DNA of 37,149 bases, from NCBI GenBank assembly GCA_017521195.1, contig JAFXGP010000037.1, positions 1 to 37,149 on the forward strand, read 5' to 3'. The DNA comes from Lachnospiraceae bacterium (GTDB lineage: Bacteria > Bacillota > Clostridia > Lachnospirales > Lachnospiraceae). Every line of letters starts with the position of its first letter. The stretch's first letter is position 1. Made by a program: the position numbers and the translations under genes. Positions 33 through 5,770 of the stretch are shown piece after piece. The notes under the pieces are model-generated. The model did not search any database, was not told the DNA's origin, and saw only the letters and a program-made list of their open reading frames with translations.

Positions 33-866
33 CTAAGCTATCCGAAATCGTATACTTTCCTTCAAACTCTCTACATCCGTATCGCCTTTCAGAAAATCTT
101 TCCAAAATTTCTCATTTGCAGTAAATCGCAAATCTTCATCATCTGAAAACTGCCCAATAAACTCCATTACTTTATCATACTGCTTTTTGCTCTCAAAAGA
201 TATTGACCATTCATATCCATCTGTCAAACCTGCTTTTTTACAAAAAATTCCTTCTTCTGTATAACATGTAATATAGCGAATTTCTTCTCCATTCGTATCC
301 GATGCTGGATAGGTGCATGAGGTACTTTCTGAAATAATCATATCCAATGCATTTTGTTCTACGGCATCTTCTTCCTTAACCGACTGCTGTTTTTCCATTT
401 CAGTATGGCGTTCCTTCATCAATGCTTCAAGGACCTCTTCAATAGAATCAAATTTCTCTAAAAATTCATTCCACTCTTCCACAGTAAAAGTCTGGTTTCC
501 AATTTGGAAAGTTTCATTTATCTCTCCATTCTCTATTTTTTCCTGCATTTCTTCTATCTGCTCACGTATGGCTTCCATGTAATTCTCATCGGAAACCTCT
601 GCACCTTCAAAGAAACCAAGCCAGTATTCTTTGGAGGATACCATGCCAAAATCTGTATCCGAGTACGAACAAACTTGATTCCACTTTTGCAAATTTCCAA
701 CAGTAGTAATGCCTATTCGTTTTCCATTGTCTGACGATTCAGAAAGCGATGTTGCATTGCCAATTGTCTCATTATTTGAAACGGACGAATTACGCCCTAC
801 TGAACGATTCTGGTTCTGTATCGCATAGTCACCTGCATAATACGAACTCACGCCATATATACCCAT
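33..866 (-). CDS. Uncharacterised 277-residue protein, last gene of the LytTR-controlled cluster
   Basis: Function is not recognised. The start is placed at the ATG of MGIYGVSSYYAGDY because AAAGGAG lies 4 nt upstream; an in-frame codon 11 residues further up would fall inside the structured leader RNA. The first ~50 residues are rich in Asn, Ser, Gly and Tyr and look disordered. A charged helical segment (~85-185) contains the string FQIGNQTFTVEEWNEFLEKF. The C-terminal third (~180-260) carries STSCTYPASD, RYITCYTEEGIFCKKAG and YEWSISFESKKQYDKVMEF, which from memory recur in many small Clostridia proteins of unknown role. There is no signal peptide or membrane segment. The gene follows the 183-residue gene and is separated from it only by the structured leader, so it is probably the end of the operon. 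I am confident that it is a gene, not of its role. Confidence 0.85.
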   Translation of the reverse strand: MGIYGVSSYYAGDYAIQNQNRSVGRNSSVSNNETIGNATSLSESSDNGKRIGITTVGNLQKWNQVCSYSDTDFGMVSSKEYWLGFFEGAEVSDENYMEAIREQIEEMQEKIENGEINETFQIGNQTFTVEEWNEFLEKFDSIEEVLEALMKERHTEMEKQQSVKEEDAVEQNALDMIISESTSCTYPASDTNGEEIRYITCYTEEGIFCKKAGLTDGYEWSISFESKKQYDKVMEFIGQFSDDEDLRFTANEKFWKDFLKGDTDVESLKESIRFRIA

Positions 867-932
867 AGTGCTCCTTTCCGCAACCCATCTGTCAGTCAAG
901 GTTGCACCGCTCTCCGGAAAGGTCCAAGCGGC
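867..932 (-). promoter_or_regulatory. Structured 5' leader RNA, copy 1, with Shine-Dalgarno-pairing pseudoknot
   Basis: On the minus strand the leader begins just after the stop codon of the upstream gene. It can form P1 (927-931 with 907-911, CCGCU/AGCGG) and P2 (900-905 with 880-885, GCAACC/GGUUGC). The P1 loop holds CCUUUCC (916-922), perfectly complementary to GGAAAGG (873-879), which is the Shine-Dalgarno sequence of the next gene. P1 and P2 are separated by one nucleotide, and P2 abuts the Shine-Dalgarno strand. The P2 loop carries GACUGACAGAU, identical in copy 2. Such a pseudoknot would block ribosome binding. Known small riboswitches such as preQ1-II and SAM-II work in this way, but the sequence does not match those I remember. 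Confidence 0.72.
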
Positions 933-1484
933 TTATTCCATACATTCATAAAATCTTTTAAACGACATATATCCTGCCATATTACCGACATCATATTGTA
1001 ACTGCATAAATTCCTTAACCAATGCCTTGAAATCCATCTTGGTATTCATGCTCTCTGCATCATACGTCAAATCGCCATTTACACCTCTGGAGGCAGTAAG
1101 AAAATCTCCAAATCCATTTTTAGTCTGTCCGGTAAGGTCAAGATATGTAGAATATGCCAGCATATCAATATAGCTTGCATCCTCAGGGTTTACCTGTGTA
1201 GGATTCACAAAGTATTCTGTTTCTTCTCCATTCTTGCCCCAATGCTTTACCATATACTGAGGATTACCATCTGTATAGCCTTCTGCTTTAAATACAGATG
1301 CACTGCTTCCATCCGGATAGCCCACAGAAGTAAGTGCTCTGCTCCCCGAATCCTCATCGGTCATTTTCAGATTAATGCAAGTCCCTGTACTAAAAGAACT
1401 CGCCACCTGATTAGTGTTCCGATTCACTCTGTTGTTGTAGTAGTTGACGCCGCCCATAGCACCGCCGATTCCTGAAATTGACAT
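933..1484 (-). CDS. Uncharacterised 183-residue protein preceded by a structured leader
   Basis: Function is not recognised. The ATG of MSISGIGGAMGG is preceded by AAAGGAG with 6 nt spacing; extending the frame upstream would run it through the leader hairpins. Residues 1-40 are Gly/Asn rich (GVNYYNNRVNRNTNQ). The remainder is a compact domain with YMVKHWGKNGEETEYFVNP, DASYIDMLAYSTYLDLTGQT and a C-terminal helix FKALVKEFMQLQYDVGNMAGYMSF. There is no Sec signal or membrane helix. The N-terminus resembles in composition those of the neighbouring genes. It probably forms a translationally controlled pair with the following 277-residue gene, because both carry the same leader. The gene call is secure and the function unknown. 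Confidence 0.85.
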   Translation of the reverse strand: MSISGIGGAMGGVNYYNNRVNRNTNQVASSFSTGTCINLKMTDEDSGSRALTSVGYPDGSSASVFKAEGYTDGNPQYMVKHWGKNGEETEYFVNPTQVNPEDASYIDMLAYSTYLDLTGQTKNGFGDFLTASRGVNGDLTYDAESMNTKMDFKALVKEFMQLQYDVGNMAGYMSFKRFYECME

Positions 1485-1550
1485 ATAATCTCCTTTCCGC
1501 AATCCATCTGTCAGTCCGGATTGCACCACTTCTCGAAAGGTCCAAGTGGT
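1485..1550 (-). promoter_or_regulatory. Structured 5' leader RNA, copy 2, with Shine-Dalgarno-pairing pseudoknot
   Basis: This has the same architecture as the element at 867-932. P1 pairs 1544-1549 with 1526-1531 (CCACUU/AAGUGG). P2 pairs 1518-1524 with 1499-1505 (GCAAUCC/GGAUUGC). The P1 loop sequence CCUUUC (1535-1540) is complementary to GAAAGG of the Shine-Dalgarno region (1492-1497). Relative to copy 1, one P1 pair changes from G-C to A-U and one P2 pair from C-G to U-A. Both changes are compensatory, while the P2 loop core GACUGACAGAUGG and the unit UUGCGGAAAGGAG are unchanged. The pattern indicates selection on RNA structure rather than on a peptide. Confidence 0.72.
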
Positions 1551-1564
1551 ATAAAAATTTTTAA

Positions 1565-1614
1565 TATATAAAAATAGCATCTATTTTCATATTCAATCCT
1601 TTGAAAATAGACGC
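1565..1614 (-). terminator. Hairpin with U-rich tail (intrinsic terminator or attenuator)
   Basis: A 13-bp stem pairs 1602-1614 with 1577-1589 (GCGUCUAUUUUCA with UGAAAAUAGAUGC, one G-U pair) around a 12-nt loop. The minus-strand continuation is U-rich (UAUUUUUAUAU). It lies after the 229-residue gene and before leader copy 2. It could end the main cluster transcript, or act as a partial terminator reducing expression of the last two genes. Confidence 0.65.
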
Positions 1615-1656
1615 CATCCTTTGCTACTAATTATATCGGCAATTATTCATTTTGCT

Positions 1657-2403: not shown

Positions 2404-3141
2404 CTAGCCTTTGAAATCAATCGTTGTTCCCAAATATTTTTCAGTATCCGTCTTTACAGTATCTGCCATTTGCAAATAATTATAATCTTCTATCTTCTTT
2501 ACCAGTTCCTCTATGGAATTCGCTGAAATAACAACTCCCTGCGCTTCTTTTTTCTCCAACCGTTTCTCTGCTAATTTTTCCTCCCGCTCTTTTTTCTGAG
2601 CTTTTTTCTGAGCAGCTTTCTTTTCTTCTTTTTTCTCAGCTCTTTGTTTTTCCAATCTATCCGCCTGCGCTTTAAAAGACTTGTCCATAACTGCAAAGAA
2701 GGAAGATGTACCATTATCATTTACCTGCATACCGAATCCTTTAACATTTGCAGAATTCCCCAATGCTTGCTTCAACTCCGGCAATTTATTCTGTGCAGAA
2801 GCAATCATGCTTTCGTACTGCTTACGATACTGCTCATCTGTTGCCATACGTTCAATCTTTTCCTCATCAATCAAAACAACCATTTTATTGGGGTTTGCAA
2901 AATTTCCGGCATTCGCTTTTGCCATTTCCTTCATATCTTTGCTTACCAAAATAAAATCCATATTTTGATATTTAGCCTTCAATTCTTCATAATACTTCTT
3001 TGCATTTTCACTAAGTTTTGGCTGACCAATCGTCTTTCCGGTCACTCCATATTTCTTCACTTCTTCAGCCTGTTTTGTTTCCTTAGCTACATATGTGTTG
3101 CTTGTTACATTTGTACTATTAGCAATTGTTCCTAAATCCAT
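2404..3141 (-). CDS. Uncharacterised 245-residue protein with Lys/Glu-rich coiled coil (possibly DUF6033-like)
   Basis: The start is set at the ATG of MDLGTIANSTNVTSN, 6 nt after AAGGAGG; an upstream in-frame codon has no ribosome site. Residues ~45-165 form a domain (YYEELKAKYQNMDFILVSKD, MVVLIDEEKIERMATDEQYR, then a VNDNGTSSFFAVMD-type strand region). A highly charged coiled coil (~165-205) of KKE/AQKK repeats follows, then a short C-terminal helix. The central domain aligns by eye with the 323-residue protein at 4738-5709: the run NFVINPYFLERLGTDEAVRK there corresponds to MVVLIDEEKIERMATDEQYR here. The two are probably paralogues. From memory the family resembles DUF6033, unverified. No signal peptide or membrane helix is present. 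Confidence 0.82.
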   Translation of the reverse strand: MDLGTIANSTNVTSNTYVAKETKQAEEVKKYGVTGKTIGQPKLSENAKKYYEELKAKYQNMDFILVSKDMKEMAKANAGNFANPNKMVVLIDEEKIERMATDEQYRKQYESMIASAQNKLPELKQALGNSANVKGFGMQVNDNGTSSFFAVMDKSFKAQADRLEKQRAEKKEEKKAAQKKAQKKEREEKLAEKRLEKKEAQGVVISANSIEELVKKIEDYNYLQMADTVKTDTEKYLGTTIDFKG

Positions 3142-3253
3142 ATTGCTACCTCCTTGTATTCTATGTGGCAAATCCATTTACCTATATTCAATCACTTAAT
3201 ATATCGTCTAAACGCGTCTGAAAATTAATATTACATACTAAAGCAATACTACA

Positions 3254-3906: not shown

Positions 3907-4722
3907 CTATAAACGCACATCAACATGGGTATATGTAATTGTTTCCGGCACAGATATCTCTACCGACTCTGTTGCATCCGTACTAATGGTTTTAGTCTTA
4001 ACATCAGCACCCACAGCCTCAGTTTCTTCTGTACCTGCCATAGTTGAATCATCTTTTTCATCAGAAACAGCAACTTTCTTATCTGTCTTTTTATCTTTAT
4101 CATCTGTTTTTTCAGTCTGCGGTTCTGTTTTTGCTACTTCTTCCAATTCCTTATTTGCATCTGCCAAAGTATTCATCTGTGCTGATTCTGCTGCCACCGC
4201 CTTCTGCTGAACCTCTGCCAGTTCCTCTTGTTTTTTATCTACATCGTCACCACGAGCCATATCTAATTTGATTTCAGCTTCCAATACACCTGCTCTGCCT
4301 TCCATCTTGTTAGCAATGCTACCCTGCACCTGTGCCAGCTCAAAAGCAGAATCCGCAGAAATCATGGCTTTCATACTTGCCTGCGATAAACCTGTTGCTT
4401 GTTTCCCTGCTTTCGAAACAGTTCCCTGACTTCCTCCTAGCATATCATTCATAGAGGCTTTTTTCTCTCGTTGCTCTTTTCTCCGTTCAATCTGATGCTG
4501 TCTTAACTGATTATTTAAATCTGCAATCTGCTGTTGTAGTTCCTGACGTTTCTTCATTTTTTCTTCAAGACTCATCTCTTTATTCGCAGAAAGTTCCTGT
4601 AACTGTTTTTGCACATTGGTGATTTGATTCTGAATATTCTTGCTGACAGAATCATTAACCTGTGCCATATTATTCATTCCACTACCCAATGCATTTGCTC
4701 CATTTAATCCATTAATTTTCAT
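3907..4722 (-). CDS. FlxA-like coiled-coil protein, 271 residues
   Basis: The start ATG (MKINGLNGANALGSGMNN) has GGGAGG 9 nt upstream. A Gly/Asn-rich N-terminus is followed by a long coiled coil (~25-85: NVQKQLQELSANKEM, KKRQELQQQIADLNNQLRQH) of the kind in the FlxA-like family. A second helical region (~105-195) contains SMKAMISADSAFELAQVQGS and MEGRAGVLEAEIKLDMARGD. The C-terminal 70 residues are acidic and Lys/Asp/Thr rich and probably disordered. FlxA was first described in E. coli as a gene under the flagellar sigma factor, and its function is unknown. There is no signal peptide. The gene follows the 323-residue gene after 15 nt, in one operon. Confidence 0.8.
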   Translation of the reverse strand: MKINGLNGANALGSGMNNMAQVNDSVSKNIQNQITNVQKQLQELSANKEMSLEEKMKKRQELQQQIADLNNQLRQHQIERRKEQREKKASMNDMLGGSQGTVSKAGKQATGLSQASMKAMISADSAFELAQVQGSIANKMEGRAGVLEAEIKLDMARGDDVDKKQEELAEVQQKAVAAESAQMNTLADANKELEEVAKTEPQTEKTDDKDKKTDKKVAVSDEKDDSTMAGTEETEAVGADVKTKTISTDATESVEISVPETITYTHVDVRL

Positions 4723-4737: not shown

Positions 4738-5709
4738 TCACATTAACGATGCCATAGCAAACATATTCTCTTCTTCCGGAGTTGCTTCTCTATCTTCTAC
4801 CTGTCCCATCCTATTTTGTGCCATGGACATTAGCATTTCTACCTTTGCCATTTCCGACTCATCGCAGTACCCTTTTTCCATGCCATCTTTCACAACCTGC
4901 ATATCATTTCTAATCTCTGATATTACCATTCGGAGCTGTTCCCTTGTTTTAGCGGCAGCTATTTTTCTCGCGGTCTTACCTACATTAACACCTACACTGG
5001 TGGACACCGACTCACTTTCTTTTTCCGAATCAGACATAGTTTCTTCTGCCTCTGTTACTTCTTCCTTCTTTATCTCTTCTTCCAGCCACTTCACAGAAAA
5101 ACCTATAAAACGATCACCAAAATATCCTTTCAATTCTTGTTCTGCTTTTCTTTGCTCCTCTAATTTTTCCTGACGGATCTTTTCTGCATAATCTGTCATA
5201 TCCTGCAAAACAGAATTTTGATTTACAGGTTTGCTGACGGACCAGCCTCCCCAGTTTCCATTTTCATCACAGAACCATCCCTGATTTACAATTTCTCTCC
5301 CCTGAGATAATTGTTGTGTACGAAATCTTTGACTAAACTCATATAAATACTTCACATCTTCTTCAAATTGCTTTCTTACTGCTTCATCTGTACCTAATCT
5401 TTCTAAAAAATACGGATTGATCACAAAATTAGTATCTGTTGAATTGCCATAAGTCTGTCCGTAACTTACCGTGCCCAGGAAAAATTTTGTACCATTAAAT
5501 TGCTTTTCTATACCATGAATGTATTTGAGTCCCGCTGATATGGAATCAGGAACTGTTGTTTCATAACTTACTCCTTCTTTTACTGCACCACCCTTAGAAT
5601 TATAATATGAGTTAACAGCATTCTCTGCTTTTTGAATCTCTCTAACTCTTTGTATATTTTGATTATTTATTCCACTGTACGTTACATTTGATATAACCTT
5701 CACTTGCAT
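4738..5709 (-). CDS. Uncharacterised 323-residue protein, first gene of the LytTR-controlled cluster
   Basis: Function is not recognised. The ATG of MQVKVISNVTYSG is chosen because a purine-rich AGGAAGGAG precedes it; the upstream in-frame ATG has no ribosome site. Residues ~40-160 form the domain shared with the 245-residue protein (NFVINPYFLERLGTDEAVRK). GWFCDENGNWGGWSVSK and a charged helix (EKIRQEKLEEQRKAEQELKG) follow. After an acidic Ser/Glu-rich linker, the C-terminal ~75 residues (GKTARKIAAAKTREQLRMVI, ISEIRNDMQVVKDGMEKGYC) make a helical module ending in MEDREATPEEE-like acidic sequence. No signal peptide or membrane segment was found. It is first in the cluster, behind the LytTR repeat pair at 5809-5838. 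Confidence 0.83.
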   Translation of the reverse strand: MQVKVISNVTYSGINNQNIQRVREIQKAENAVNSYYNSKGGAVKEGVSYETTVPDSISAGLKYIHGIEKQFNGTKFFLGTVSYGQTYGNSTDTNFVINPYFLERLGTDEAVRKQFEEDVKYLYEFSQRFRTQQLSQGREIVNQGWFCDENGNWGGWSVSKPVNQNSVLQDMTDYAEKIRQEKLEEQRKAEQELKGYFGDRFIGFSVKWLEEEIKKEEVTEAEETMSDSEKESESVSTSVGVNVGKTARKIAAAKTREQLRMVISEIRNDMQVVKDGMEKGYCDESEMAKVEMLMSMAQNRMGQVEDREATPEEENMFAMASLM

Positions 5710-5770
5710 TCTCCTTCCTGATTTTTTATACCGAAATCTGTTTCCATCCACATATACACTTCTCTTACTT

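Follow-up and report, generated by a model that had tools for sequence, protein, structure and literature searches.

The closest described systems each share part of the organisation of the leader RNA presented here. The preQ1-II and SAM-II riboswitches are small leaders that pair the loop of a hairpin with the Shine-Dalgarno (SD) strand, while the guanidine-II (mini-ykkC) RNA is built from two small hairpins side by side, with conserved loops. In Clostridia, the c-di-GMP-I and c-di-GMP-II riboswitches are found, some of them before flagellar genes. Translational control of a flagellar protein is represented by CsrA and FliW in Bacillus subtilis, where CsrA binds the flagellin leader and represses its translation. 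The rod proteins, for their part, are axial components of the flagellum and are exported by the same apparatus as the hook.

Flagellum assembly requires hook protein at the proper stage and in the proper quantity. How Clostridia time its translation was not described in the available parts of the literature searched. Two leader elements from a Lachnospiraceae genome are described here and belong to an RNA family that is new and well supported; it centres on the hook gene flgE and occurs in many Clostridia as well as in other members of the phylum.

Two leader elements in the window

The window, that is, the whole stretch of 37,149 nucleotides that was analysed, carries two copies of a compact leader RNA on its minus strand (Table 1). 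An earlier note, made from the sequence alone, had proposed these two copies, and its description proved accurate: the blocks GGACCUUUC, GACUGACAGAUGG and UUGCGGAAAGGAG are common to both elements, and each stem contains one compensatory change, with G929-C909 in P1 of element 1 corresponding to A1547-U1528 in element 2, and C901-G884 in P2 corresponding to U1520-A1503. Both copies can form two adjacent hairpins, and in both the P1 loop is complementary to the SD strand, over 7 bp in element 1 (CCUUUCC:GGAAAGG) and 6 bp in element 2 (CCUUUC:GAAAGG).

Table 1. Leader elements and the genes beneath them in the window. R1 and R2 are the covariance models described below; both include the window copies (R1 seed), so that the bit scores given here are by construction.
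Feature	Position	Strand	Remarks
Leader element 1, W type	867..932	-	sequence; R1 83.7 bits, R2 77.9 bits
Element 1 setting	immediately 3' of stop 935-933 (gene 936-1484), immediately 5' of ATG 866-864 (gene 36-866)	-	
Element 1 P1 hairpin	906..932	-	5' strand 932-926, 3' strand 912-906; covaries in homologues
Element 1 P1 loop	925-913	-	GGACCUUUCCGGA
Element 1 P2 hairpin	880..905	-	5' strand 905-899, 3' strand 886-880; stem covaries in homologues
Element 1 P2 loop, 12 nt	898-887	-	UGACUGACAGAU; near-invariant in homologues
Element 1 Shine-Dalgarno strand GGAAAGGAG	871..879	-	879-873 complementary to CCUUUCC (922-916)
Leader element 2, W type	1485..1550	-	sequence; R1 87.1 bits, R2 72.8 bits
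Element 2 setting	immediately 5' of ATG 1484-1482, gene 936-1484	-	
Element 2 P1 hairpin	1525..1550	-	5' strand 1550-1544, 3' strand 1531-1525
Element 2 P1 loop	1543-1532	-	GGACCUUUCGAG
Element 2 P2 hairpin	1499..1524	-	5' strand 1524-1518, 3' strand 1505-1499
Element 2 P2 loop	1517-1506	-	GGACUGACAGAU
Element 2 Shine-Dalgarno strand GGAAAGGAG	1490..1498	-	1497-1492 complementary to CCUUUC (1540-1535)
Gene under element 1, 277 aa, MGIYGVSSYYAGDY..., no family assigned	36..866	-	Ser/Asn/Gln-rich N-terminus
Gene under element 2, 183 aa, MSISGIGGAMGGVNYY..., no family assigned	936..1484	-	

The folding energy of the two copies is unremarkable (z -0.59 and -1.59 against shuffles), and these weak scores were dropped as evidence for structure; it is the covariation in homologues, rather than folding energy, that places the structure beyond chance. 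Promoter-like matches near the elements numbered 5, against 3.4 (sd 2.0) expected, and a scan for intrinsic terminators found none near them. Upstream of element 2 (1560-1620, minus strand) lies an inverted repeat rich in A and T, with a T-rich stretch behind it, which the scan, requiring G+C pairs, did not report.

The two genes under the elements have no known function, as the earlier note had stated: the protein of gene 36..866 has no Pfam match above the cut-off and that of gene 936..1484 has neither a Pfam nor an NCBIfam match. Each protein is matched in 8 of 98 genomes, the own genome counted, some of the matches of the former being weak. The leader-bearing genes are adjoined by two DUF6033 genes (2404-3177 and 4738-5751, minus strand) and a FlxA-like gene (3907-4722), for which no leader match of their own was listed.

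Searches of Rfam 15 yielded no match at the gathering score in the window and only chance-level matches (E<=10) around the two elements. Equally, 18 related loci gave no match at E<=0.5, and 16 loci from the class and the phylum none at the gathering score. The novelty that a match to either segment would have removed thus stands; membership in a known Rfam family was rejected for the window and for the related, class and phylum loci, as was membership in the preQ1-II or SAM-II classes, whose Rfam models gave no match. The element was not described in the available parts of the literature on flgE leaders or RNA motifs, flagellar riboswitches, DUF6033, TIGR02530 and FlxA, nor in those on flagellar mRNA export signals; "flagell" and related terms do not occur in the main texts of PMC8040213, PMC11109978, PMC6429828 and PMC8632094.

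Homologues and their spread

The full motif pattern was found in only 2 of 61 genomes: the own genome, with just these two copies, and G004 of the same genus, which holds the same pair in near-identical form and with the same loop-SD complementarity. A search of 98 relatives with the downstream proteins brought up further leaders in G010, G001 and G004:C77, with stems that had changed yet remained paired. One leader in G035 (L020:751-802), before a gene with no function assigned, retains P2 with its loop as well as the SD, but no P1 is recognisable.

The covariance model from homologous leaders that the earlier note had called for was built in two rounds, and it uncovered a wide family with covarying stems. 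Within the own family, R1, made from seven sequences including the window copies and giving rough E-values, matched (E<=0.01) in 95 of 397 genomes. The second model, R2, was built from 92 distinct R1 matches, a subset of all R1 rows, on a CM-fitted alignment (A8); a MAFFT alignment of all leader types together was dropped, the 3' strand of P1 having been misplaced in it. R2 matched 84 genomes (E<=0.01) among the 391 searched in the class, mostly once per genome, and 76 of the 84 lie outside the own family; in the phylum it matched 28 of 229, including 26 outside the class. In all these genome searches match counts are lower bounds, and absence of the element is a soft result. A pattern scan of named genomes, biased to AGCCGGACC, added at least 119 stretches, with records of Agathobacter, Butyrivibrio, Kineothrix, Herbinix, Mobilitalea, Acetivibrio and Desulfotruncus among the bearers.

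Leaders were sorted into three types, a grouping of our own. The W type, that of the window, mostly has a GGACCUUUC loop, with GAAAGGAG directly after P2 and a start codon typically 3-8 nt further on; in one leader of this type (L046:1501-1601), the P1 loop is enlarged by an insert of about 37 nt, while both hairpins and the SD are preserved. The F type has an AGCC/GGCU-like P1 and a AGGAGGUC-like SD located further downstream. The M type often shows a GGACUUAUU loop and occurs in several copies per genome. In four genomes (G377, G308, G312 and G743; loci L074, L076, L078 and L288) several M-type leaders are accompanied by tandem small proteins downstream, which start M-[SN]-[IV]-x-GIG. G743, which falls outside the own order, shows no hook-gene copy among its matches listed.

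Structure and covariation

The structure was assessed on 80 of the 164 hook-gene leaders that passed filters, aligned with MAFFT blind to structure. In this alignment, 90.7% of the cells at the proposed pairs were paired, compared with 69.8% after shuffling and 31.9-53.0% in slid versions; cells changed on both sides numbered 318, compared with 91.2 and 17-79, respectively. Changes on both sides were seen at 15 of the 16 pairs, and RNAalifold recovered P1, two P1b pairs and P2 unaided. Among the six P2 pairs, a mean of 5.93 form in hook-gene leaders (n=124; 3.96 with shuffled partners) and 5.83 in the other leaders (n=86; 4.74 with shuffled partners). The best contiguous P1 stem, refitting allowed, reached 5.44 versus 3.98 (n=109) and 5.89 versus 4.36 (n=74).

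The homologues also refine the picture of the hairpins. P1 contains a conserved GGA bulge beneath an inner stem, P1b, which competes with SD pairing and whose two inner pairs are almost invariant, variation being confined to the outer, loop-side pairs. The P2 loop, which the earlier note had singled out as invariant, is near-invariant in the homologues too: it comprises 12 nt, N-GA[AC][UC]GACAGA-N, and at positions 2, 3, 6, 10 and 11 the same base is kept by at least 97% of hook-gene and of other leaders. P1 with its GGA bulge, P2 with the GANNGACAGA loop and covarying stems, the features by which the family is recognised, were all found. A universal outer helix, P0, was rejected, since a stem of at least 7 occurs only in a subset (113 of 242 leaders, against 72.6 expected).

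The same data bear on whether the element could be a DNA-level or mobile repeat copied between loci and devoid of RNA function. Several genomes do hold many copies (at least 9 in G308), as such a repeat would. Covariation contradicts this explanation, with both-side changes at nearly every pair; moreover, strand and position before start codons are fixed and most genomes of the class have a single match, which makes a mobile repeat extremely improbable.

Complementarity of the P1 loop to the Shine-Dalgarno strand

In hook-gene leaders (n=120), the loop-SD duplex was stronger than in permuted combinations (-9.98 native versus -8.91; z -7.7, 0 of 3000 permutations). The controls behaved differently: z was -1.9 for the reversed SD window, +1.7 for the upstream 32 nt and +2.4 for the early coding region. 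W-type leaders showed the same tendency to a moderate degree only (z -2.5, 21 of 3000 permutations as good), while in the M type the pairing was not significant (z -1.6, 177 of 3000). A pooled test was discarded because its reversed control also reached z -4.1, and only the within-type figures count.

In addition, UC follows GGAGG in 140 of 208 hook-gene leaders compared with 7 of 457 other genes of the same loci (kinship ignored), and it is this UC that would pair with the GA of GGACC. The count was drawn from 243 distinct leaders, after exclusion of 9 with no start found and 26 lacking GGAGG. Both the permutation and the UC tests ignore phylogeny. The commonest hook-gene leaders would pair as GACCU:AGGUC, in place of the CCUUUC:GAAAGG of the window.

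These comparisons make SD masking likely in the hook-gene and W types: in hook-gene leaders, the loop is complementary to the SD beyond chance, and in the M type it is not. The earlier note had proposed for the window a cis-acting switch that hides the SD. The structured leader and its loop-SD complementarity hold for the window and for hook-gene leaders; the pairing is not a universal feature of the family, given the M type, the loss of pairing in some W-type copies (2 bp in L045) and the absence of P1 in L020.

Genes downstream of the leader

The link to flagella comes from the genes that follow the leader, a role across Clostridia and beyond that was not foreseen from the window. F-type leaders precede proteins with a common N-terminal start. 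In the first set, 84 downstream proteins were found and 80 scanned, two duplicates and two short ORFs being omitted; Flg_bb_rod was matched by 18, with FlgE their best NCBIfam model, and DUF6033 by 8; most had no match. An HMM built from the 18 confirmed N-termini, which by itself cannot separate hook from rod genes, was used to classify the others.

By this HMM, after relocation in the loci, a hook/rod-family gene lies downstream of 106 of 118 distinct R2 matches. Outside the own family, 74 of 76 genomes have a copy before such a gene: 73 by the HMM, and G721 by eye, its locus L145 being cut by the contig end and the protein starting MMRSMFSGVSGL. The two exceptions are G743, with M-type copies only, and G758, whose match is spurious. 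The best match was examined for 23 of the 26 phylum genomes outside the class, and all 23 precede a hook/rod-family gene, as do 115 of the 119 pattern matches listed from named genomes (HMM), a further one, L171, being cut at the locus end; L207 (Paenibacillus), L259 and L271 (Paractinoplanes) are chance-like among the pattern matches listed. The window copies fall outside this rule, both preceding genes of no known family; the same genome carries a separate hook-gene leader at G000:C86:15709-15768.

Most of these genes are hook-like. Among the 106, the IGNN signature is present in 100, I[SA]NN in 3 and neither in 3; complete IGNN proteins are at least 350 aa long in 62 of 67 cases, and IGNN occurs in 18 of 23 in the phylum set. 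The proteins of L276 and L134 have hook length, yet score below the FlgE equivalog cut-offs. That all downstream genes are flgE was rejected, as the HMM also catches rod genes: three proteins (L339, L346 and L354) score above the FlgG cut-off of NCBIfam, and for a fourth, L358, FlgG is the best model, though below its cut-off. The name flgE leader therefore fits most cases, with some distant lineages carrying the leader before flgG. Since rod proteins are axial and leave by the hook's export route, these flgG cases fit an axial-protein theme equally well and do not alter the odds given below.

The upstream gene and the stop codon in P1

An upstream ORF is present for 224 of 234 distinct hook-gene leaders. 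In 134 of the 224, its stop codon ends within the P1 strand, 2-4 nt ahead of GGAC; in another 32 the distance to GGAC is 5-6 nt. Like the P1b stem above the GGA bulge, this arrangement, shared by most hook-gene leaders, was not anticipated in the earlier note. The upstream gene was TIGR02530, a flagellar operon protein, in all six tested of ten inspected; its product (e.g., L097:615-1010) has a conserved C-terminal GAV-I-(I/V/M/A), encoded immediately ahead of P1. A ribosome that terminates at a stop codon within P1 or bordering it would open the hairpin. In some leaders, the final codons of the upstream ORF form further pairs with a stretch 3' of P2 (mean longest stem 6.67 native versus 6.02 permuted, 0 of 2000). 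Non-hook leaders have an upstream ORF in 77 of 90 cases, at a median distance of 55 nt.

Such a setting could suggest a structured intercistronic spacer that serves coupling or mRNA stability only, the TIGR02530 ribosome freeing the SD and no trans factor taking part. In its favour, 166 of 224 hook-gene leaders have the upstream stop codon within P1 or bordering it, and a subset shows the last-codon pairing. This explanation leaves the GGA bulge and the near-invariant P2 loop unaccounted for, as well as the non-hook copies with their median distance of 55 nt from an upstream ORF, and it is judged clearly unlikely.

Association with flagella and leader-marked small proteins

The distribution of the leader is linked to that of flagella, for which FlhA (PF00771, E<=1e-30) was taken as the mark. 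FlhA is present in 209 of the 397 own-family genomes, and specifically in 94 of the 95 with an R1 hit compared with 115 of the 302 others (Fisher p 1.3e-30); the lone negative, G184, has a match of 25.9 bits. At E<=0.05, R2 found the element in 36 of 60 FlhA-positive own-family genomes missed by R1 (60 of 115 sampled) and in none of 20 FlhA-negative ones. The other 24 of the 60 are FlhA-positive with no element detected, an absence that is soft. Among 80 randomly drawn R2-negative genomes of the class, 17 have FlhA, so the detected leader is not in every flagellated clostridium.

The proteins under non-hook leaders share a polar N-terminus. In the first set, the N-terminal fraction of S/T/N/Q/G was 0.450, compared with 0.341 for the remaining ORFs of these loci. 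A strongly hydrophobic stretch within the first 45 residues was found in 0 of 62 of these proteins versus 11 of 88. Polar N-termini of this kind would fit export by the flagellar apparatus, and flagellar export substrates may be the common theme of the controlled genes. A regulon of leader-marked small proteins that are export substrates is, however, speculative. In practical terms, the leader provides a sequence tag for unannotated small genes of flagellated genomes, as candidates for new flagellar or flagellum-exported proteins.

A proposed translational switch and its possible partners

Judging from sequence comparison, we infer that the flgE-leader RNA acts on translation. The best explanation, to which a probability of roughly 60% is given, is that the window elements belong to the flgE-leader family and that this RNA is a translational switch on mRNAs of flagellar axial proteins, bound by a trans factor. 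In one state, the CC(U) of the P1 loop would pair inside P1b and leave the SD free; in the other, it would pair with the SD and hinder the ribosome. The trans factor could be a small molecule or else a protein that is produced or released as the flagellum is assembled; by binding the invariant GGA bulge and the GACAGA loop, it would probably shift the balance between P1b and SD pairing. On hook-gene mRNAs, the ribosome terminating on TIGR02530 would open P1, and translation of the hook gene would probably be coupled to it. In some lineages, copies precede small proteins of no known function, as in the window. A bolder version, in which a phylum-wide RNA sensor reads, through a ligand or protein, rod, hook or export status and releases translation of FlgE, of FlgG in some lineages and of hidden flagellum-exported proteins, among them the two window genes in Lachnospiraceae-type bacteria, is tentative and rather improbable as it stands.

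One candidate partner is CsrA. It could bind the GGA in P1 and that in the SD and so repress translation; the conserved GGA in the P1 loop and the GGA of the SD would suit it, and 66 of 80 R2-hit genomes encode it. CsrA is missing from the other 14, one of which is G758 with its spurious match. The complete, single-contig genomes G526 and G617 are also among them, and their leaders (L276, 42.5 bits; L277, 29.3 bits) precede a hook-type gene. CsrA as an obligatory partner was rejected because complete genomes bear the leader without it. Furthermore, the third base of GGA is U or C in 13 of 206 tetramers listed, and CsrA binding leaves the near-invariant GACAGA loop unexplained. A CsrA-bound leader is accordingly held to be very unlikely.

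A small-molecule riboswitch, sensing for example c-di-GMP, would be a special case of the translational switch proposed above. Compactness, near-invariant loop nucleotides and the flagellar setting would all agree with it, and GGDEF domains occur in 80 of 80 R2-hit genomes. That ubiquity discriminates neither for nor against c-di-GMP, which renders GGDEF co-occurrence uninformative; no Rfam family matched either, those of c-di-GMP included. This special case is doubtful, if a serious contender. Of the suggestion that the element is an undescribed riboswitch class, novelty is retained, in that the family is new and has no Rfam match, and the partner may be a small ligand or a protein. In the former case the RNA would represent a riboswitch class not described before; in the latter, a new flagellar checkpoint. 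In either case, a conserved, covarying leader on flgE makes the timing of hook translation open to experiment.

Comparison with known systems

Like preQ1-II and SAM-II, the flgE-leader RNA is a small leader with a hairpin loop able to pair with the SD strand. It differs from them in having no Rfam match and other conserved nucleotides, and in its flagellar gene setting, theirs being queuosine or methionine genes. With the guanidine-II (mini-ykkC) RNA it has in common two small neighbouring hairpins with conserved loops; in contrast, the loop sequences are different, and the two hairpins of the flgE leader are dissimilar, only one loop being able to pair with the SD.

The c-di-GMP-I and c-di-GMP-II riboswitches are likewise found in Clostridia, in part as leaders of flagellar genes, although their architecture is different, none of their Rfam models matches, and the flgE-leader RNA is located within the operon, right before the hook gene. 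Finally, the CsrA-bound flagellin leader offers the parallel of an exported flagellar protein under translational control with a GGA near the SD, whereas the flgE-leader RNA occurs in complete genomes that lack CsrA and possesses, in addition, a near-invariant P2 loop.
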